DNA from: Alistipes sp.
GTDB lineage: Bacteria > Bacillota > Clostridia > Oscillospirales > Ruminococcaceae
Direction: 5' to 3'
Assembly: GCA_023667265.1 (NCBI GenBank)
Contig: JAMPAJ010000004.1
Span: 1 to 64,000 of the forward strand
Length of the DNA: 64,000 bases
Of the stretch, positions 8,019-50,925 are shown piece by piece; within the stretch, counting starts at the first letter, position 1; the number at the start of each line of letters is the position of its first letter. The notes beneath the pieces are model-generated. The model worked only from the letters and a program-made list of their open reading frames with translations, made no database searches and was not told the DNA's origin. Position numbers and translations under genes: made by a program.

Positions 8019-9431
8019 TCAATCGTATCGTTCACAAACGACCTCCTGCGGCTCGATCGTTTTGTATTCTATGCTCGTAAATTTCTTGAAATTCCGATTG
8101 AAAAGCAGGATCGCCGCTGCAAATGAAGCTGCCTCCGCAATCGGAAACGCGATCCAGATAAGCTTCTCCTGGAGCTGCATGGCGGCAAATAATGCTGTAA
8201 GCGGAAGAACGACTATGACCATTCTGAGAGCCGAGATCACAAGAGAGCTTATTCCGCTGCCAAGCGCCTGGCATACGCCCTGAAGCATCACATTTACACC
8301 TGCAAATATAAATCCCGCGCTTATGATGCGCAGTGCAGACACGCATAATGCGGACGCTTCGACCGACAGCTTGAAAATGTCAACAATAGGCGACGCGCAA
8401 AGCTGGAACAGAAGTATGCCGAATGTCATAATTGCAAGGATCACCCAGATGGCGTATCTTATCGTTTTTTTGACGCGATGAATTTGTTTCGCTCCGATAT
8501 TATAGCCAATTATAGGCACGCAGGCATTGTTCAATCCAAATGCCGGCATAAATATAAAGCTTTGCAGCTTATAGTAAACTCCGTAAGCCGTTATCGCTTC
8601 AGCAGAAACGCTCTTCAGGATAAGGTTCATTCCCAGCGTCATAATACTTGTCAGCGCCTGCATGAGAATTGCCGGTGCGCCGACCTTCATAATTTCGCCG
8701 ATAATTTTAACGTCCGGCTTTATGTATCTGAGATGACTTATTATCTCGGTATTTTTCCGGAAATGGAATGTGGCGGAAATGGCGATGGCACAGCATTGCC
8801 CGACAACTGTTGCAATAGCCGCGCCTGCAACGCCCATTGCAGGAATACCGCAGTATCCGAAAATAAATATCGGGTCGAGAATTATATTCAAAACTGAGCC
8901 TGTAAGCTGTCCAAGCATTGAATAGGTCGTTTTTCCCGTTGCCTGCAATAGCTTTTCAAAACATTTTTCACCCATATTGCCAAAGCTCAGACAGGTGACA
9001 AGCCCCAGATACGTGGCTCCGAAATTATAAACCACCGCGTCGTTCGTAAAAAAGCCGATAAACGGTCTTGCGAAAAACAACCCGAAAATCAGCATAACGG
9101 CGTAGTACAGGCAGTAGAGCAGCATTGCATTTCCTGCCGTTTTGCTCGCCTTTTCCCTGTCGCCGCTGCCAAGAGCACGTGAAAGGGACGCTCCCACGCC
9201 AACTCCGGTTCCCACGTTCAATGCGGTCATCAGCATTTGTATCGGGAACGCAAGGGACAGCGCATTAGCCGCCGCCTCGCCTGCACCTTCTATCCTGGAT
9301 ACAAAAAATGTATCAACAATATTGTACAGCGCAGTTATCAGCATCGAAAGCATTAACGGCACTCCCATTGAGATCAGCAGTCTTCCCTCGTGCATAGTTC
9401 CCATTTTGTTTTGCGAAATTGTTTTTCCCAT
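8019..9431 (-). CDS. MATE family multidrug/cation exporter
   Basis: The start is ATG 9431 (MGKTISQNKMGTMHEGRL...), preceded by AAGGAAG. The product has 470 residues, normal for the family. Twelve hydrophobic helices are apparent in two homologous halves; SMGVPLMLSMLITALYNIVD and the repeated GxGxGxxxSRALG-type segment of helix 2-3 are typical of NorM/DinF-like proteins. It would export drugs or metabolites in exchange for Na+ or H+. It stands alone, with its own promoter and terminator, and is transcribed divergently from the GntR operon. The substrate cannot be read from sequence. Confidence 0.88.
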   Translation of the reverse strand: MGKTISQNKMGTMHEGRLLISMGVPLMLSMLITALYNIVDTFFVSRIEGAGEAAANALSLAFPIQMLMTALNVGTGVGVGASLSRALGSGDREKASKTAGNAMLLYCLYYAVMLIFGLFFARPFIGFFTNDAVVYNFGATYLGLVTCLSFGNMGEKCFEKLLQATGKTTYSMLGQLTGSVLNIILDPIFIFGYCGIPAMGVAGAAIATVVGQCCAIAISATFHFRKNTEIISHLRYIKPDVKIIGEIMKVGAPAILMQALTSIMTLGMNLILKSVSAEAITAYGVYYKLQSFIFMPAFGLNNACVPIIGYNIGAKQIHRVKKTIRYAIWVILAIMTFGILLFQLCASPIVDIFKLSVEASALCVSALRIISAGFIFAGVNVMLQGVCQALGSGISSLVISALRMVIVVLPLTALFAAMQLQEKLIWIAFPIAEAASFAAAILLFNRNFKKFTSIEYKTIEPQEVVCERYD

Positions 9432-9462
9432 TTTTATCTTCCTTTTTCTGACATCTATTGAT

Positions 9463-9491
9463 ATTATAGCATGCCATCTGCAAAATTGCAA
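9463..9491 (-). promoter_or_regulatory. Promoter of the MATE gene
   Basis: On the minus strand TTGCAA (9491-9486) followed by TTTT, 17-nt spacer, TATAAT (9468-9463). It belongs to the TTGCAATTTT class seen elsewhere in the window. Confidence 0.75.
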
Positions 9492-9531
9492 TAGCCGCAT
9501 GAAAAATTTCAGTTGTTATTATTCATCCCGA

Positions 9532-9608
9532 CCGCGGCATATTTACATCTGCAAAATAAATCAGCGAGGTACTCGCGGTCACGTGAATCGCCCGCGGGGG
9601 CTCCCCGC
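9532..9608 (+). repeat. Solo copy of the GCGAGGTACTCGC core repeat
   Basis: This 77-bp sequence (atttacatctgcaaaataaa, then cagcgaggtactcgcgg, acgtgaatcgcccgcggggg, ctccccgc) is nearly identical to the core segments at 45929, 46304 and 46611. It contains the hairpins GCGAG-GTA-CTCGC and GCGGGGG-CT-CCCCGC. Here it stands alone between the divergent MATE and GntR promoters, without the multi-hairpin module seen at 46 kb. Confidence 0.75.
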
Positions 9609-43462: not shown

Positions 43463-45928
43463 ATGAAAAAGAGTATGCTAAGACGGAGCTCCTTCCGTGA
43501 CATAAGGCAGACCTTCGGGCGATTTATGGCGATTTTAGCCATTATGGCGCTGGGCGTGGGATTTTTCTCCGGCGTACGGGAGACGACGCCCTCAATGGTC
43601 AACACAATTAATCAATTCCTCGAGGAACAGCAGCTTTACGACTACAGGCTGATCTCCTCCATGGGCTGGGATAAATCGGCGGTGGAGGAGTTCCGGAGCG
43701 AGCCGGAGGTGCGGTTCGCCGAGGGCAGCTCGACCCTGGACGTACTGTGGAACAGAGGCGGCGCGGATTTCGTGCTGAAAACCCACATGATGCCGGAAAA
43801 TATCAACGGCATACGGCTCACTGAGGGCAGACTTCCCCAGACCGGCAGCGAGTGCGTCATCGACGCCGACGAAAATCTGAAAATCGGCGATAAGCTGCGT
43901 ATTTCTGCGGAAAATCCGGATTCCGCCGCCGATACGTTCAATACAAAGGAATTTACGATCGTCGGAAAGGCATATTCCTCACAGTATATTAATTTTGAGC
44001 GCGGCACCACCTCCCTGGGCAGCGGAGATGTGCGCGGATTTGTGTATATTCCAGAATCCGCCTACGCTTTGGACTACTACACGGAAATATTCATCCGCTT
44101 CGACCATTCCCATGAAATATACTCTCAGGAATATAAAGATATGATGGATTCCCTGGAGGACAAGTGGCAGGAAGCTGCTCAGGCTCAGGCGGACGCACGG
44201 TACGACAGGCTCTTCGGCGAGCTTGCTGCCGCTGCGGAGGCAGGACTGACGGAGGCTGAAATTCCCGAAAAACCGACGGTTTACCTGATGAACCGGAACA
44301 CCAACATCGGCTACGCCTGCTTCGAGAGCGACTCCCAGATCGTCGGGCAGGTGGCGAAGGTTTTCCCGGTTTTCTTCATTCTCGTGGCAGCCCTCGTCTG
44401 TATGACCACCATGAGCCGTATGGTCGAGGAGCAGCGGACTCAGATCGGTATGCTGAAGGCTCTGGGCTATTCCCGTGGAAAAATTATGGGCAAGTTTATG
44501 TTCTACTCCGGTTCAGCCTCGATCCTTGGCTGTTTACTGGGCTTTTTCGCAGGCACATATGCCCTGCCCCGGATAATCTGGATAACCTATCGGCTCATGT
44601 ATATCGAGCTGGAAATGAGCTATCACTTCGACCCGGTATTGTGTGCGTCAACAGCGGCGGCTGCGCTTCTCTGCTCGCTGGGAACGACCTGGATATCGTG
44701 CAGAGTCGAGCTTTCCGAAACTGCCGCTTCACTCATGCGCCCGAAAGCTCCGAAAGCCGGAAAGCGCGTATTTCTGGAGCATATCGGCTTTATCTGGAAC
44801 AGAATGAAGTTCCTGCACAAGGTCTCCGTCCGCAACATTTTCCGCTATAAGGGCAGATTCTTCATGATGATAATCGGCATCGGCGGCTGTACTGCGCTGC
44901 TGCTGACCGGCTTCGGGCTGAAGGACTCCGTGGCAGGCTTTGCGCCCTCCCAGTACGAGGAGGTGGAAATTGCCGACGGACAGGCGTATTTCGACTCCGG
45001 AAACGCTGAAAATGCGGAAAAGCTTCTGGCGGAAAAGACCGAAAAATCGGCAATTTTCCACACCTCGGCATGGGACGTCCTCTACAGCGACCATGTGAAG
45101 AGCATTTCCCTCAACGTTTCGGAGGATCTCGGGGCGTTTGACGGGCTTGTGGACTACCACGGCGAGGACGGCGGAAAGCTGGCGGCTCCCGGAGTCGGCG
45201 AGGCGATAGTAAGCCAGAGCGTGTGCGAGCGATACGGCGCAGAACCGGGAAAAACCATCACTCTCCGCAACAGGGATATGGAGGAGCTTCACGTGAAGGT
45301 CGCCGGCGTTTTCGAGAATCATGTGTACAACTACGTCTGCATCAGCGGCGAGACCTATCGTCAGCAGCTTGGCAGGTCGGCGGAGGCGAACACGGCTTAC
45401 GTGAATCTGCGGCTGGACGGCAGGACTGCGGCTGAGGCGGCGGCGGAGCTGTCCAGAACGCCGGAGATCAGCGCATTTACCAGCTTTTCCGAGCTTAAGG
45501 AGCGGCTTTCAAATATGATGAAGAGTCTGAATTACATCGTACTCGTCATTATCATCTGCGCTGCCGGACTGGCGTTCATCGTCATTTACAACCTGACGAA
45601 CATCAATATAACCGAGCGCACCCGGGAGATCGCAACGATAAAGGTTCTCGGCTTCACGCGGCACGAATCCTCGGCGTATGTGCTTCGGGAGAATCTCGTT
45701 CTGACGGCGATAGGCGTAGCGGCAGGGTGTATCGCAGGAATTTTCCTGCACAGGTTTGTGATGCAGCAGATAGTTGTGGACATGGTGCAGTTCAGTGTGA
45801 AGATAGAGGCGATAAGCTTTGTGCTCAGTGTTGCGCTGACCTTCTTATTCAATATGGCAGTGAATCTGTTCATGAATGTGAAGCTGGAGCGGATAAACAT
45901 GGCGGAGTCGCTGAAAGAAGTAGATTAG
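43463..45928 (+). CDS. FtsX/MacB-like ABC permease
   Basis: ATG 43463 is favoured over ATG 43436 because it lies 4 nt after the ATPase stop; the ribosome site is weak. The 821-residue product has one N-terminal helix (MAILAIMALGVGFF), a large extracytoplasmic domain (about 45-280) with a coiled-coil-like stretch near 235-265, three helices around 300-420 (first FtsX domain), a second extracytoplasmic domain (about 480-680), and three C-terminal helices (second FtsX domain). This duplicated layout is common in Firmicute peptide or lantibiotic exporters. Substrate unknown. Confidence 0.88.
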   Translation: MKKSMLRRSSFRDIRQTFGRFMAILAIMALGVGFFSGVRETTPSMVNTINQFLEEQQLYDYRLISSMGWDKSAVEEFRSEPEVRFAEGSSTLDVLWNRGGADFVLKTHMMPENINGIRLTEGRLPQTGSECVIDADENLKIGDKLRISAENPDSAADTFNTKEFTIVGKAYSSQYINFERGTTSLGSGDVRGFVYIPESAYALDYYTEIFIRFDHSHEIYSQEYKDMMDSLEDKWQEAAQAQADARYDRLFGELAAAAEAGLTEAEIPEKPTVYLMNRNTNIGYACFESDSQIVGQVAKVFPVFFILVAALVCMTTMSRMVEEQRTQIGMLKALGYSRGKIMGKFMFYSGSASILGCLLGFFAGTYALPRIIWITYRLMYIELEMSYHFDPVLCASTAAAALLCSLGTTWISCRVELSETAASLMRPKAPKAGKRVFLEHIGFIWNRMKFLHKVSVRNIFRYKGRFFMMIIGIGGCTALLLTGFGLKDSVAGFAPSQYEEVEIADGQAYFDSGNAENAEKLLAEKTEKSAIFHTSAWDVLYSDHVKSISLNVSEDLGAFDGLVDYHGEDGGKLAAPGVGEAIVSQSVCERYGAEPGKTITLRNRDMEELHVKVAGVFENHVYNYVCISGETYRQQLGRSAEANTAYVNLRLDGRTAAEAAAELSRTPEISAFTSFSELKERLSNMMKSLNYIVLVIIICAAGLAFIVIYNLTNINITERTREIATIKVLGFTRHESSAYVLRENLVLTAIGVAAGCIAGIFLHRFVMQQIVVDMVQFSVKIEAISFVLSVALTFLFNMAVNLFMNVKLERINMAESLKEVD

Positions 45929-46006
45929 CGGGGAGCCCCCGCGGGCGATTCACGTGACCGCGAGTACCTCGCTGATTTGTTTTTCAGACGTAGATATTCC
46001 GCGCGC
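45929..46006 (-). repeat. Core repeat copy, inverted, starting at the permease stop codon
   Basis: In reverse complement this is the same sequence as the solo copy at 9532-9608 (aatatctacgtctg..., cagcgaggtactcgcgg, acgtgaatcgcccgcggggg). It begins at the first base after the stop codon of the permease gene and is the tail of hairpin unit 1. Confidence 0.8.
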
Positions 46007-46038
46007 GAAAATATTTCAATTACTGACACTCCAAGCGC

Positions 46039-46233
46039 GACACCGGGTTTCAAAAGGGACGGTTGTCCCTTTTGCGAAGTCCAGAGGCAGCGCCTTTGGC
46101 GAGGCATGGAGCAGAGCTCCATATCGACCGCAGGTCGATGTTATACTTTAGGCGCCCTGCAAGGGGTGAATTAAAAAACAGTCCGGTGGACTGTTTTTTA
46201 AGAGGGGACGCTCTGCAAGAGAGAGCGTCCCCT
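46039..46233 (+). ncRNA. Hairpin module 1: six consecutive stem-loops
   Basis: The module consists of back-to-back stems: caaaagggac/gtcccttttg (46051-46074), ccagaggc/gcctttgg (46081-46099), atggagc/gctccat (46106-46122), atcgacc/ggtcgat (46123-46139), aaaaaacagtcc/ggactgtttttt (46173-46199) and aggggacgctct/agagcgtcccct (46203-46233). Module 2 at 46386-46580 is a diverged copy in the opposite orientation, in which most stem changes are matched by changes on the partner strand. The fifth stem with its T-run could act as a terminator. No coding capacity is evident. Whether the functional form is RNA or single-stranded DNA is not known. Confidence 0.6.
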
Positions 46234-46303
46234 AAAACTTTCACAGGAAATTCAAAAAGGTAGAAAGAAATTCTCCCCGAATAAAAGAGGAAGGAAATCA
46301 TAT

Positions 46304-46384
46304 CGCTCGCGGAATATCTACACCTGCAAAATAAATTAGCGAGGTACTCGCGGCTACGTGAAACCGCCCGTGGGGGCTGCCCCA
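46304..46384 (+). repeat. Core repeat copy, direct orientation
   Basis: ggaatatctacacctgcaaa, then taaattagcgaggtactcgc and the cgcccgtgggggctgcccca block match the other core copies with a few changes. It lies between hairpin modules 1 and 2 and abuts module 2. Confidence 0.8.
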
Positions 46385-46385
46385 C

Positions 46386-46580
46386 AAGGGAACGCCCTCT
46401 CTTGCAGGGCGTTCCCTCTTTTGTAACAGTCCACTGGACTGTTACAAAATTCACCCTTTGCGGAGCGCCTAAAGGCATTATCGACGTTCCGTCGATATGG
46501 GACGCTGTCCCATGCCCTGCCAGAGGCGCTGCCTCTGGACTTCGCCAAAGGGACAACCGTCCCTTTGGAAACCCGGTGTT
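46386..46580 (-). ncRNA. Hairpin module 2: six consecutive stem-loops, inverted copy of module 1
   Basis: Read on the minus strand the stems are ccaaagggac/gtccctttgg, ccagaggc/gcctctgg, atgggac/gtcccat, atcgacg/cgtcgat, ttgtaacagtcc/ggactgttacaa and agggaacgccct/agggcgttccct. They keep the loops of module 1 (ggtt, agc, gcaagag), while several stem pairs are exchanged as pairs. The similarity to module 1 runs the full 195 bp, including the single-stranded joints (gcgaagt, tttaggcgc, ggtgaatt). Confidence 0.6.
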
Positions 46581-46610
46581 TTACGCTTAGATTGTCTGCA
46601 ATCATGATTT

Positions 46611-46697
46611 TCTCCGCACGCGGCAATATCTGCGCCAGTCGATAAATCAGCGAGTTTACTCGCGGCTACGTGAATTGCCCGCGGGGGGCTGCCCCGC
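46611..46697 (+). repeat. Core repeat copy at the end of hairpin unit 2
   Basis: cggcaatatctgcgcc, aaatcagcgagtttactcgc and gcggctacgtgaattgcccg match the core. The GCGAG/CTCGC hairpin is kept with an altered loop. With module 2 it forms unit 2 (46386-46697), a mirror image of unit 1 (45929-46233). Confidence 0.8.
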
Positions 46698-46766
46698 TGG
46701 TGATATTTTATCTCAGGTGCGGTAACACAAAAGCACAATATATCAGTTAATCAGTATTATTTATCA

Positions 46767-46795
46767 TTGAATTTTTTGTGAACATGATATATAAT
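46767..46795 (+). promoter_or_regulatory. Promoter of the double pectate lyase gene
   Basis: TTGAAT at 46767-46772, 17-nt spacer, TATAAT at 46790-46795. Confidence 0.65.
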
Positions 46796-46802
46796 ATAAT
46801 CA

Positions 46803-46886
46803 CAGGGTCGGGAATGACCCAAGCGAACGGTCGGGAACGAGTCCCGGTCATATATCATTATATTTTACCACCGTCATCGTGACGGA
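46803..46886 (+). other. Leader with three hairpins before the double pectate lyase
   Basis: gggtc-gggaat-gaccc (46805-46820), cggga-acgag-tcccg (46832-46846) and ccgtca-tcg-tgacgg (46871-46885) fold between promoter and ribosome site. The first two share the string gtcggga. The third is followed only by A, so it is not a terminator. It may stabilise the mRNA or regulate it; no known riboswitch class was recognised. Confidence 0.4.
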
Positions 46887-46905
46887 AAAATCGGAGGGAA
46901 AGAAA

Positions 46906-49900
46906 ATGAAAAATTCTATCATGAAGAAAAGGATCATGGCGATCGCCGCTTCTGCAGTTATGAGCGTTTCTGCTGTGACAGGTGCTGCCGGAACTGTTGC
47001 CGCTCCCCTGCTCGCAAATATGACAACTTCCATGGCTGCCGAGGCAAGCGTCAAGATCAACGCAACTGTAGGCTATGCCGAGGGTATGTACGCTACCTGG
47101 GGCGCTGTTTCGGGAGCTTCCGGCTACAACGTTTACGTTGACGGCGTGCAGATCGACTCCATGCTCATCAGACAGTACAGCGGCTACATGAGAGCCGACG
47201 CTATCGGTCTTAAAGCCGGCAGCCACACAATGAAGATCGTCCCCGTTATCAGCGGCAAGGAGGACAGCTCGAAGGCTGCTTCCGGTACGGCAAGCGTTTA
47301 CGCCCACGACAGAAGCGGCTACGCTTTCGCTGACGGTCATATGCCCGGAGCTTACAAGGCTGACGGTACTCTGAAGGACAACGCTATCGTCGTTTACGTT
47401 ACAGACGAAAATAAGGACACCGTTACCGCTTCTCTCAACGCCGAGGGCAAGGGCAACGTCGAGTGCAAGGGAATCCAGAACATCGTTACAGCCTACAAAA
47501 AAGGCAAGGAAACGCGTCCTATCTCTATCAGACTTATCGGAAACATCTCCGACCCTGCAAATATGCCCAAGGGCGACCTTATGGTGGACACAGTTACCTC
47601 CGCAGGCATGACTATCGAGGGCATCGGCAGCGATACTACAGCTAACGGCTGGGGAATCGTGCTGAAAAACTGCGTTGACGTCGAGGTAAGAAACATCGGC
47701 ACAATGAACTGCAACAGCGACGAGGGCGACAACATCGGTCTCCAGCAGGGCGACTCCTACTGCTGGGTGCACAACTGCGACTACTTCTACGGCGACGCAG
47801 GCTCTGACGCAGACCAGGTAAAGGGCGACGGCGCGCTTGACACAAAGAAGTCCCACCATATCACCCACTCCTACAACCACTTCTACGACAACGGAAAGTG
47901 CAATCTCCAGGGCGCAAACAGCTCTGATACGTCGAATTACATCACATACCACCACAACTGGTACGACCACTCCGACTCACGTCACCCCAGAGTAAGAGTT
48001 GCTACAGTTCACGTTTACAACAACTATTACGACGGCAACGCCAAGTACGGCATCGGTTCGACTACGGATTCCGATATTTTCGCTGAAAACAACTACTTCC
48101 GCAACTGCGCCAAGCCCATGATGATAGCAGGTCAGGGAACGGACGCTGCCGGCGAGGGCACATTTTCCGGCGAGGGAGGCGGTATGATAAAGGCCTACGG
48201 CAACGTTTTCGTGGGCGGAACATACGTTCCCTACAGCGAAAACAGCACGCAGTTCGACTTCTACGACGCTAAGTCCAGAACCGAAGCTGTCCCCTCCTCC
48301 GTCAAGGCGGCTAAGGGCGGCGCAGGCTACAACAACTTCGACACTGCAAGCGATTTCTACAGCTATAACCTGGATGCAGCCGAGGACGTTCCCTCTGTCG
48401 TTACGGCAAAGGCTGGACGTGTTGACGGCGGCGATTTCAAGTGGACCTTCGACGCCTCCGAGGACACAAACTACGCTGTAATTCCCGAGCTCAAGGCTGC
48501 TCTGGTGGCTTACGACGACGCTATCGTTTCCATCGGCAGCGGCTTCAAGGACGATGTCTCAAATCCTCCCACAACAACTCCCCAGCAGACAACGCCCCAG
48601 ACCTCACAGCAGACTACGCCTCAGCAGACGACTCCTGCTTCAAACTCCAGCGTGACAGGCGGACAGGTACACAACTTCACAGAAAGCGAAATGTCCAGCA
48701 GCTTCTACACCATTTCCGGCAACATGAACAGCAAGCCCGCGGCTATCACCTACAACGGTCTGACTCTTTCCAAGTGCATGAAAATGGAGTCCGCAACAAG
48801 CATCACATTCACGGCAGGCTCTTCCGGACTTCTGACTCTTGTAACAGATTCGGCTTCCAAGAATATCAAAATTGACGGCGACAAGTATGCTACAGATTCA
48901 GACGGCACGCTGACTATCGACCTGGGCGCAGGCGCTCACACTATCACCAAGGGCGACTCCATGAACCTCTACTATATGTCCTTCGGCGGCGAGGCTGGCA
49001 CACCTGTTGTCACAAACGCTCCCACAAGCGGCAATACTCCCGTTGTGACAACTGTTACAGTCACAACTCCTGCCGCACAGGTTCCCTCCGGCGATATCAA
49101 GGTCGTTTACGCAGGCGGCTGGAACGAAATGGCTTACCTCGTATGCTCCGGCATCAAGGACGCCAACGTAACGGGCGTCTCCTACGCCGGCACGACAAAC
49201 GGCAAGCTTTCCGGCGAGGACTTTGAATACCTCGTAAGAGACGTAAACGAGGGCGTTCGCGTTGATCTTCTCGGTCTGAAGCCCGGCACATACAGCATCA
49301 CTCTCGAGACTACCGCAGGCAAGATCACTCAGCCCGGCATCGTAGTCGGCGAGCAGGATCGTTCCGGTTACGCCCACTTCAACTACACCGACGGCGTAGG
49401 CGCATACAACGACGACGGTACTCTTAAAGAGGGCGCAAGAATTCTCTACATCACAAACGAAAACAAGGACACTGTTTCCATCACCTCCAAGGACGGCACA
49501 ACGGTAACAGGTATCGGCAATATCCTTAACTCCGCAGGCATGGACTCCGGAAACGGCAAGACCTCCGGCGGCGGTACGGCTAATACAAACTCCGGCATCA
49601 TCAAGAAGATAGCTCAGGACGACACTCCCCTGGTCATCAGAATTATCGGCAACGTCGAGACTCCCAAGGGCGTTACAGAGTTCGACTCCGCAAACTACGG
49701 CGGAACTGTCGGCGACAACGGCGGCATGGCAAGAATGAAGTCCGGTAAGAACATCACTATCGAGGGCGTGGGCAACGACGCTGTAGTAAACGGCTGGGGC
49801 TTCCACTTCATGTGCGAATCCTCCGACCCCGACCTGGGCAAATCCTTCGAGGTAAGAAATATCGCATTCAGAAACGTTCCCGAGGACTGCATCGGCATGG

Positions 49901-50925
49901 AGGGCGTTCAGGAGGGCTCCGGCGACAGCGCTAAGCTCACTGCTTCCGTTGAGAGATGCTGGATACACAACTGCGAATTTTACGTTCCCAAGATAGCAAA
50001 TCCTGCCGAGTCCGACAAGGCTGAGGGCGACGGAGCCTGCGACTTCAAGCGCGGTCAGTACTTCACAAACAGCTACTGCTACTACGAGGGCTACCACAAG
50101 ACAAACCTGGTAGGCGCTTCGGATTCAAATATCCAGTACAACATCACCTTCCACCACAACTACTGGAAAAACTGCGAGTCAAGAGGTCCTCTCGCCCGTC
50201 AGGCTAACATTCATATGTACAACAACGTATTCGACGCACAGTCAAGCTACTGCCAGAACCCCAGAGCAAACGCTTACATCTTCTCCGAGTATAACGCATT
50301 TGTAAACGAGTGCAAGAACCCCGGCGTGCTTACCTCCGGCGGCGTAATCAAGAGCTACAACGACGCGTTCATCAGCCTGAAAAAGGGCGCAAAGGACGAG
50401 GCTACAAAGGTTTCCAGCAGAACCGAAAAGGTAAGCAGCTCCAACAAGTATGCCGGCTTTGAGATGGATTCCAAGCTCTCATACATCCCCTCCGGCGCAT
50501 ACGTTCTCTCCGAAAAGACAGGCGACGCGCTCTACACCGAGCTTAACTCCGTATTCGAGGAGCTGGGCGGCTGTATGGACAACAAGAAGCTGACGACCTC
50601 CGCGCCTGTAACAGAGCCTGCACCCACAACAACAGCTGCACCCCAGCCTGTCGTTACAACAACTGCCGCTCCCGATCCTGTCACAACCACAGCCGCTCCT
50701 GTTGCAAACGTAACACCCGGCGACGCAAACGACGACGGCATAGTTGATATCGCAGACGCTACACTTCTTCTCCAGTACATCGGAAACAGCGACAAGTACA
50801 AGCTTTCAGCAGCAGGACTTGCAAATTCAGACGTAGCAGAGCCAAAGGGCATCACAGCTCTCGACTCTCTCCAGATACAGATGTACGACGCAAAGATTGT
50901 TGACAAGCTTACGGTGATTTCATAA
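46906..50925 (+). CDS. Secreted double PL1 pectate lyase with dockerin
   Basis: ATG 46906 follows GGAGGG; signal peptide about 1-45; 1339 residues. Layout: Fn3-like module (about 50-130); PL1 domain 1 (about 135-545) with GDGALD, YHHNWYDH and SRHPRVR; Thr/Pro/Gln linker (about 554-580); beta module of carbohydrate-binding type (about 583-698); Thr/Pro linker; second Fn3-like module (about 727-818); PL1 domain 2 (about 818-1205) with GDGACD, FHHNYW and SRGPLAR; Pro/Thr linker; dockerin (about 1268-1339, GDANDDGIVDIADATLLLQY and ITALDSLQIQMY). Both catalytic domains keep the RxPxxR motif whose Arg abstracts the proton. Codons end strongly in C, as in highly expressed genes. The dockerin differs from the other four in the window. 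Confidence 0.92.
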   Translation: MKNSIMKKRIMAIAASAVMSVSAVTGAAGTVAAPLLANMTTSMAAEASVKINATVGYAEGMYATWGAVSGASGYNVYVDGVQIDSMLIRQYSGYMRADAIGLKAGSHTMKIVPVISGKEDSSKAASGTASVYAHDRSGYAFADGHMPGAYKADGTLKDNAIVVYVTDENKDTVTASLNAEGKGNVECKGIQNIVTAYKKGKETRPISIRLIGNISDPANMPKGDLMVDTVTSAGMTIEGIGSDTTANGWGIVLKNCVDVEVRNIGTMNCNSDEGDNIGLQQGDSYCWVHNCDYFYGDAGSDADQVKGDGALDTKKSHHITHSYNHFYDNGKCNLQGANSSDTSNYITYHHNWYDHSDSRHPRVRVATVHVYNNYYDGNAKYGIGSTTDSDIFAENNYFRNCAKPMMIAGQGTDAAGEGTFSGEGGGMIKAYGNVFVGGTYVPYSENSTQFDFYDAKSRTEAVPSSVKAAKGGAGYNNFDTASDFYSYNLDAAEDVPSVVTAKAGRVDGGDFKWTFDASEDTNYAVIPELKAALVAYDDAIVSIGSGFKDDVSNPPTTTPQQTTPQTSQQTTPQQTTPASNSSVTGGQVHNFTESEMSSSFYTISGNMNSKPAAITYNGLTLSKCMKMESATSITFTAGSSGLLTLVTDSASKNIKIDGDKYATDSDGTLTIDLGAGAHTITKGDSMNLYYMSFGGEAGTPVVTNAPTSGNTPVVTTVTVTTPAAQVPSGDIKVVYAGGWNEMAYLVCSGIKDANVTGVSYAGTTNGKLSGEDFEYLVRDVNEGVRVDLLGLKPGTYSITLETTAGKITQPGIVVGEQDRSGYAHFNYTDGVGAYNDDGTLKEGARILYITNENKDTVSITSKDGTTVTGIGNILNSAGMDSGNGKTSGGGTANTNSGIIKKIAQDDTPLVIRIIGNVETPKGVTEFDSANYGGTVGDNGGMARMKSGKNITIEGVGNDAVVNGWGFHFMCESSDPDLGKSFEVRNIAFRNVPEDCIGMEGVQEGSGDSAKLTASVERCWIHNCEFYVPKIANPAESDKAEGDGACDFKRGQYFTNSYCYYEGYHKTNLVGASDSNIQYNITFHHNYWKNCESRGPLARQANIHMYNNVFDAQSSYCQNPRANAYIFSEYNAFVNECKNPGVLTSGGVIKSYNDAFISLKKGAKDEATKVSSRTEKVSSSNKYAGFEMDSKLSYIPSGAYVLSEKTGDALYTELNSVFEELGGCMDNKKLTTSAPVTEPAPTTTAAPQPVVTTTAAPDPVTTTAAPVANVTPGDANDDGIVDIADATLLLQYIGNSDKYKLSAAGLANSDVAEPKGITALDSLQIQMYDAKIVDKLTVIS

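Follow-up and report, generated by a model that had tools for sequence, protein, structure and literature searches.

Small structured repeats are common in bacteria, but it is seldom settled whether their fold is relevant as RNA or as DNA. Among the described families closest to the element studied here, BOX of Streptococcus pneumoniae is a small, modular, interspersed repeat with a variable number of inner modules, a predicted folded RNA and ends similar to those of an insertion sequence (IS); it is over-represented between convergent genes, and shielding of 3' ends or damping of read-through has been proposed for it (PMC3049150). The repeats bcr1-bcr3 of the Bacillus cereus group are MITE-like and often lie in UTRs or between the genes of an operon; about half of all bcr copies have been seen in transcripts, and a correlation with decay rate is given for bcr3 only (PMC3446304). 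IS1272 (IS1182 family, TnSha1) inserts at stem-loops and terminators, and its description in PMC4923244 reports no target duplication.

Here we describe a repeat family found in the window, that is, the whole analysed stretch of 64,000 nucleotides. Its unit is a six-hairpin cassette that resembles BOX in kind, as a modular repeat near genes with a predicted RNA fold, not in sequence; it differs from BOX in its six separate hairpins, its pervasive paired change, the measured strand bias of its mismatches and its fixed mirror-image composites. With bcr1-bcr3 the cassette has in common that it is a MITE-like repeat; it comes from a different taxon, and the restriction of the decay-rate correlation to bcr3 cautions against presuming that the cassette stabilises transcripts. 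Like REP/BIME elements it presents intergenic hairpins in inverted arrangement, but it is much longer and has multiple hairpins. Moreover, the Y1/RAYT transposase family (PF01797) had no match in G000, the window's own genome (2.57 Mb, 96% complete), nor in G018, the genome with the most cassette matches found (87% complete), and RAYT mobilisation was rejected for G000 on that ground. In relatives, the cassette recalls the IS1182 family, having the same ends as an IS1182-family element that lies beside terminator hairpins.

The best reading is that of a BOX/bcr1-like, MITE-borne putative RNA cassette without an Rfam match. Rfam 15 gave no match in the window at the gathering score; with loose thresholds, the region 45800-46900 gave five matches far below gathering scores, and nothing credible. 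In the open-licence literature on repeats, MITEs, structured RNAs and hairpins of Ruminococcus, we found no published description of it.

Two inverted cassettes beside a pectate lyase gene

Profile searches resolved positions 45929-46697 into a composite of two inverted 192-bp six-hairpin cassettes and three 84-bp "core" repeats:

45930-46012, plus strand: core repeat copy 1, hairpin-rich, 1 base from the stop codon of an FtsX-like permease gene
46040-46233, plus strand: cassette 1, six hairpins
46051-46074, plus strand: hairpin 1 of cassette 1, 10 pairs, loop GGTT
46081-46099, plus strand: hairpin 2 of cassette 1, 8 pairs, one of which is G-T in the window copy
46106-46122, plus strand: hairpin 3 of cassette 1, 7 pairs, loop AGA
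46123-46139, plus strand: hairpin 4 of cassette 1, 7 pairs
46171-46201, plus strand: hairpin 5 of cassette 1, 14 pairs, the basal ones hypervariable yet complementary
46203-46233, plus strand: hairpin 6 of cassette 1, 12 pairs, loop GCAAGAG
46234-46386, no strand assigned: composite interior, between the two mirror-image cassettes
46299-46382, minus strand: core repeat copy 2, between the two units
46387-46579, minus strand: cassette 2, six hairpins
46610-46694, minus strand: core repeat copy 3, the outer end of the composite, absent at the orthologous locus of G018

The initial annotation had described two inverted units of 305-312 bp. That they are inverted copies is borne out by the unit alignment and by the complementarity of the arms (87% for 46040-46139/46480-46579, 82% for 46146-46233/46387-46474); single units are too simple a description, because the profile searches identified cassette and core as separate repeats that combine. 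Core copy 1 is linked to cassette 1 via a 27-bp extension, and the minus-strand core copy between the units (46299-46382) had gone unmentioned. All the paired changes named at the outset are present in the unit alignment: stem 1 goes from A-T to C-G and stem 4 from C-G to G-C, two pairs are exchanged in stem 3, and stems 5 and 6 differ at four and two pairs, respectively. A one-sided change in stem 2 (G-T in unit 1, G-C in unit 2) had not been listed, and the stem 3 loop, said to be an unchanged AGC, differs between the units (AGA/AGC), as does the loop of stem 4.

The outer cores of the composite form a 31-bp inverted pair (90%), which makes them candidate termini only, and the interior contains a terminator-like hairpin in minus-strand reading (46292-46273). 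Among the stretches fetched from G000, the core gave 22 profile matches, some of them partial. A core repeat without a cassette lies at 9526-9606 (minus strand), a short distance 5' of the start of a minus-strand ORF of 493 aa (8019-9500).

On one side, the composite is separated by 1 base from the stop codon of an FtsX/MacB-like permease gene; on the other side follows a pectate lyase gene (46879-50925). This gene encodes a large enzyme with two pectate lyase matches, a CBM77 domain and a type I dockerin domain, which suggests a cellulosome component. Its leader contains a direct repeat, GGTCGGGAAYGA, at 46806-46840; in the G018 orthologue a 23-bp gap removes one copy.

ORFs across the composite are mechanical and reach at most 168 aa, and no transposase ORF was seen in the cassette by inspection. 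In this respect the cassette resembles a MITE: it is short (about 192 bp), has many copies (43 near-full ones) and, from the inspected ORFs, carries no transposase of its own. For 46040-46233, the predicted RNA fold is far beyond chance, with z = -7.9 for the plus and -8.2 for the minus strand; with good in silico folds on either strand, the energies do not tell which strand is the relevant one.

Copies, ends and mobility

The initial annotation had proposed collecting homologues, and these proved abundant. A covariance model (R1) built from 42 G000 copies gave 80 matches in G000 among the 150 of 896 candidates that were scored, 43 of them near-full (at least 200 bits). Of 60 genomes sampled from the genus, 44 had matches, counting G000 itself. 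G018 had at least 151 matches (150 of 1467 candidates scored), G035 had 62 and G072 had 24. Order-wide, 13 of 147 genomes matched, again including the window's own, and in another genus of the same family all 17 scored candidates, in two genomes, were matches. Many G018 contigs start inside or next to a cassette (e.g., C118:1-192 and C69:43-234); the repeat thus appears to interrupt assembly, and the true copy numbers may be higher. The cassette matched nothing in phage or plasmid records. A 19-base motif occurred in 21 viral-contig stretches, only one of which had the cassette, cut by the contig end, while a 31-base fragment was present in one other; with almost all motif matches lacking the cassette, there is no sign of regular carriage by phages.

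Single cassettes are common. In the fetched stretches of G000 we also found ten opposite-orientation pairs no more than 153 bp apart, with the cassettes pointing towards each other in every case. In seven the gap is 148-153 bp, with a tail, a hairpin and a core in common; two others overlap, with hairpin 6 in common, and one has a 95-bp gap. By simple codon-score gene calls, which make this a rough count, the ten mirror pairs lie in three convergent, six co-directional and one divergent setting. G000 also has a single close pair in the same orientation, both copies being partial (485597/485751), and in two places a cassette looks interrupted by a core (61252/61451 and 851434/851641). The number of hairpins varies: some G000 copies are shortened, and one G072 copy (L226) has an extra hairpin. 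A comparison of flanking loci, also proposed at the outset, gave no clean empty site: at the G018 orthologue of the pectate lyase locus an element is present too, with hairpins 1-4 tandemly repeated and the core missing, and the end of this element is only a few bases from the same TGATATTTTA.

Transposon-type ends are visible in relatives. In G072, the left end was common to 14 of the 15 fetched copies. Thirteen copies had both ends; nine of these were near-identical and 296-298 bp long, and four measured 323-360 bp. The 12-bp inverted ends were AAATCATAATTT/AAATTATGATTT, some with one change, and the flanking 2 bp agreed in 9 of the 13, eight times as AT, which could belong to the end. Terminal inverted repeats were also present in relatives with CAGTCTGTC-type ends. 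Four cassette-free, palindromic elements of 183 bp (L318, L330 and L338 in G072, L320 in G070) had ends ATAAATCAWAATTT, as the cassette elements of G072 do, and are apparently another MITE family.

In other relatives, the cassette lies between CAGTCTGTCGAAAAAGT-type ends beside hairpins, and the CAGTCTGTCGAAAAAGT end is also found on an IS1182 transposase element. End-motif loci numbered 29, in six of the eight genomes searched: seven had a strong cassette match (at least 90 bits), one a weak match and 21 none. By eye, 18 of these 21 have a start like that of one IS; the L290 protein of this IS matched the NCBIfam IS1182 model with 399 bits (cut-off 270), and three more cassette-free loci coincided with partial IS1182 matches (G010:C48, G001:C53 and G001:C48). 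In the relatives G001, G010 and G067, the cassette ends were common to an IS1182-family element of the same genome. The IS1182 transposase was not found in a search of G000, nor were CAGTCTGTCGAAAAAGT-type ends seen by eye beside the G000 copies inspected.

In seven relatives, similar hairpins flank the cassette on either side, a difference from the target behaviour of IS1272 in the description cited above (PMC4923244). Four of them have CAGTCTGTCGAAAAAGT-type ends (L177, L179, L035 and L043, the last with a reversed loop), and three lack clear ends of this type (L040, L223 and L042). A general duplication of target hairpins was rejected: when 119 copies were compared by score, a minority exceeded the mismatched-pair control, some of them due to cores or repeats in the flanks. 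In G006, one IS1182 element had both ends, each beside a hairpin, and the two hairpins were different. L036 contains a 36-bp perfect direct repeat (GGGCGGCGGAACGCCGCCCC core), 114 bp to the left and 110 bp to the right of the cassette, which is perhaps another dispersed hairpin repeat.

From its dispersal and its ends, the cassette family looks mobile, and the suggestion in the initial annotation of a hairpin-based mobile element holds to that extent. Tentatively, one could go further and regard the cassette as an independent RNA module that was captured by unrelated ends (IS1182-type, ATAAATCATAATTT-type and core-type) and re-dressed even at one site, so that the folded transcript, not the DNA ends, would be the unit of selection. 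We consider this possible, at odds well short of even.

Paired change and the strand of the fold

We aligned the 42 G000 copies structure-blind with MAFFT. Hairpin "4b" (alignment columns 117-127) was left out of the structure before counting because it held 38 A-C cells against 100 Watson-Crick cells, an omission that favours the one-strand reading. In the 42 copies, 99.7% of the 2432 stem cells paired, and 19 of the 58 pairs had changed on both sides (198 cells); none of 500 shuffles reached either value. The number of further pair types was no different from shuffles (36 against 34.9), and sliding the partners dropped pairing to 33-48%. The basal pairs of hairpin 5 showed up to four Watson-Crick types. 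On a FastTree tree with parsimony, we counted 65 same-branch compensatory events, where the null averaged 2.9 and never exceeded 9 in 300 replicates; because of gene conversion among copies, trees of this kind are approximate. Compensatory change thus goes beyond both the shuffles and a tree-aware null, and the idea of a structured RNA stands in so far as the fold is kept by paired change.

In one alignment of the 42 copies (A2), unpaired columns 63/64 were linked with 72/73/79/80, and 120/125 with 170/175/187/192. Their linkage with stem pairs of hairpins 3 and 6 was perfect or almost so, despite variable sites in between, and the linked letters were mirror-like relative to the 5' arm, not complementary. 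This may reflect either subfamily blocks or a tertiary contact.

Arms could also be matched without any function, by palindrome correction or template switching at the DNA level (cruciforms, quasipalindrome repair, gene conversion), an alternative that the initial annotation had raised. Hairpin events at the DNA level do occur: the loop of hairpin 6 is inverted, with intact arms, in 3 of the 42 copies. Furthermore, the linked blocks common to copies suggest gene conversion, and intermediates are rare. Against it, loops and linkers change faster than stems (2.91 versus 1.53 changes per column), and above all, if arms were matched only via repair of double-stranded palindromes, which acts on both strands, leftover G-T and A-C mismatches would be expected alike.

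They are not. The G000 stems had 39 G-T cells, at 10 pairs, and no A-C cell with hairpin 4b left out; 4b alone had 29 G-T and 38 A-C, so that with it the G000 totals are 68 and 38. In other genomes (87 distinct rows of 89, as L189 duplicates L044), there were 77 G-T against 14 A-C stem cells in an alignment made to fit the structure and tilted in its favour. In unpaired columns, the corresponding changes (G-T-type versus A-C-type cells) were 119/161 in G000, 48/58 in G018 and 140/277 in the others; as these show no such excess, mutation bias does not explain that of the stems. Counted as tree events over all sets, stems had 57 G-T against 16 A-C and unpaired columns 228 against 218 (Fisher p 1.3e-5). 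By set, the stem events were 15 versus 1 in G000 (p 0.001), 30 versus 11 in the other genomes (p 0.0037) and 12 versus 4 in G018, where unpaired columns had 37 versus 21 and the difference was not significant (p 0.55). When the six basal pairs of hairpin 5 were checked without an alignment, in 78 rows of the other genomes, 6 G-T and 4 A-C were found, that is, no bias; this fits palindrome correction and means that the signal is carried by the other stems. Since mismatches in the stems of the cassette strand are mostly G-T and not A-C, palindrome correction probably does not account for everything, and we regard it as an unlikely explanation of the cassette.

The G-T bias, which repair of double-stranded palindromes does not predict, on the whole favours selection acting on the folded cassette strand. 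It suggests that the cassette is maintained in a folded, single-stranded form, for which RNA is the simplest candidate. The constrained form might instead be single-stranded DNA of the cassette strand, for instance a strand-specific intermediate of transposition or replication recognised by its hairpins. Hairpins of single-stranded DNA also tolerate G-T better than A-C, so that folding as ssDNA would give the same bias. DDE elements with inverted ends, however, work on double-stranded DNA, and here such ends lie outside the cassette; in addition, the known family of transposases that act on ssDNA hairpins is the Y1/RAYT family, without match in G000 and G018. IS1272, of the IS1182 family, has been reported to target DNA secondary structures (PMC4923244), and this lends the ssDNA form some plausibility; on balance we think it quite improbable.

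Position at gene ends and what the element may do

Gene context was taken from gene calls by a simple codon score. Among copies with an upstream call, the cassette was co-oriented with that upstream gene in 32 of 46 cases in G000, 25 of 30 in G018 and 33 of 50 in other genomes; among copies with calls on both sides, settings between divergent genes were rare (3/45, 0/10 and 4/47, respectively). We rejected the upstream same-direction excess as a sign of sense transcription: it arises mostly from convergent sites, and in co-directional settings the cassette lay on the same versus the opposite strand 14 and 11 times in G000, 3 and 2 times in G018, and 11 and 12 times in the others. A pure sense 3'-UTR role would predict a strand preference. 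As co-directional sites show no clear one, the placement fits a mobile element tolerated at gene ends and is no proof of a sense 3'-UTR role.

Terminator-like hairpins were scanned for beside the cassettes, with 14 copies left out (13 of G018 and 1 of the others). Counts for left plus, right plus, left minus and right minus were 7, 4, 7 and 17 in G000 (n = 47), 3, 5, 1 and 5 in G018 (n = 18) and 9, 14, 6 and 8 in the other genomes (n = 55). Such hairpins were more frequent in cassette flanks than in 99 control stretches, which were mostly intragenic and had 1 on the plus and 3 on the minus strand. In the region of the window around the composite, the scan found seven, against a shuffled mean of 1.3. 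Three of the seven belong to cassettes, two on the cassette strand (hairpin 4 in cassette 1, the 4b stretch in cassette 2) and one on the opposite strand (hairpin 6 in cassette 2). That the hairpins are mere transcription terminators carried by the element agrees with these excesses over controls and shuffles, and is nonetheless very doubtful, given that the other four of the seven lie outside the cassettes, that by eye hairpin 6 has no following T-run in most copies, and that several copies sit behind a terminator already there.

The explanation we prefer, with a probability of roughly 0.58, is that of a MITE- or BOX-like dispersed, non-autonomous element, moved in trans, whose six-hairpin cassette is kept foldable on one strand, most simply as RNA. 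The element of Ruminococcus and its relatives would spread as DNA via transposases acting in trans, and some transposase would move it, or have moved it, in G000. Insertions downstream of genes would survive, and there the cassette would be transcribed mostly by read-through from the neighbouring gene. The folded RNA may be either useful or harmless, possibly as a shield in 3'-UTRs and intergenic regions against 3'-5' exonucleases or read-through; as proposed for BOX, the row of hairpins may shield 3' ends or damp read-through.

The many copies of such an element amount to a natural mutation experiment, in which the asymmetry between G-T and A-C, controlled by unpaired columns, argues for one strand; the same test is applicable to BOX, bcr1, REP and other families. 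If the cassette is indeed a portable RNA domain, it would show that transposons are able to spread RNA structure to gene ends.
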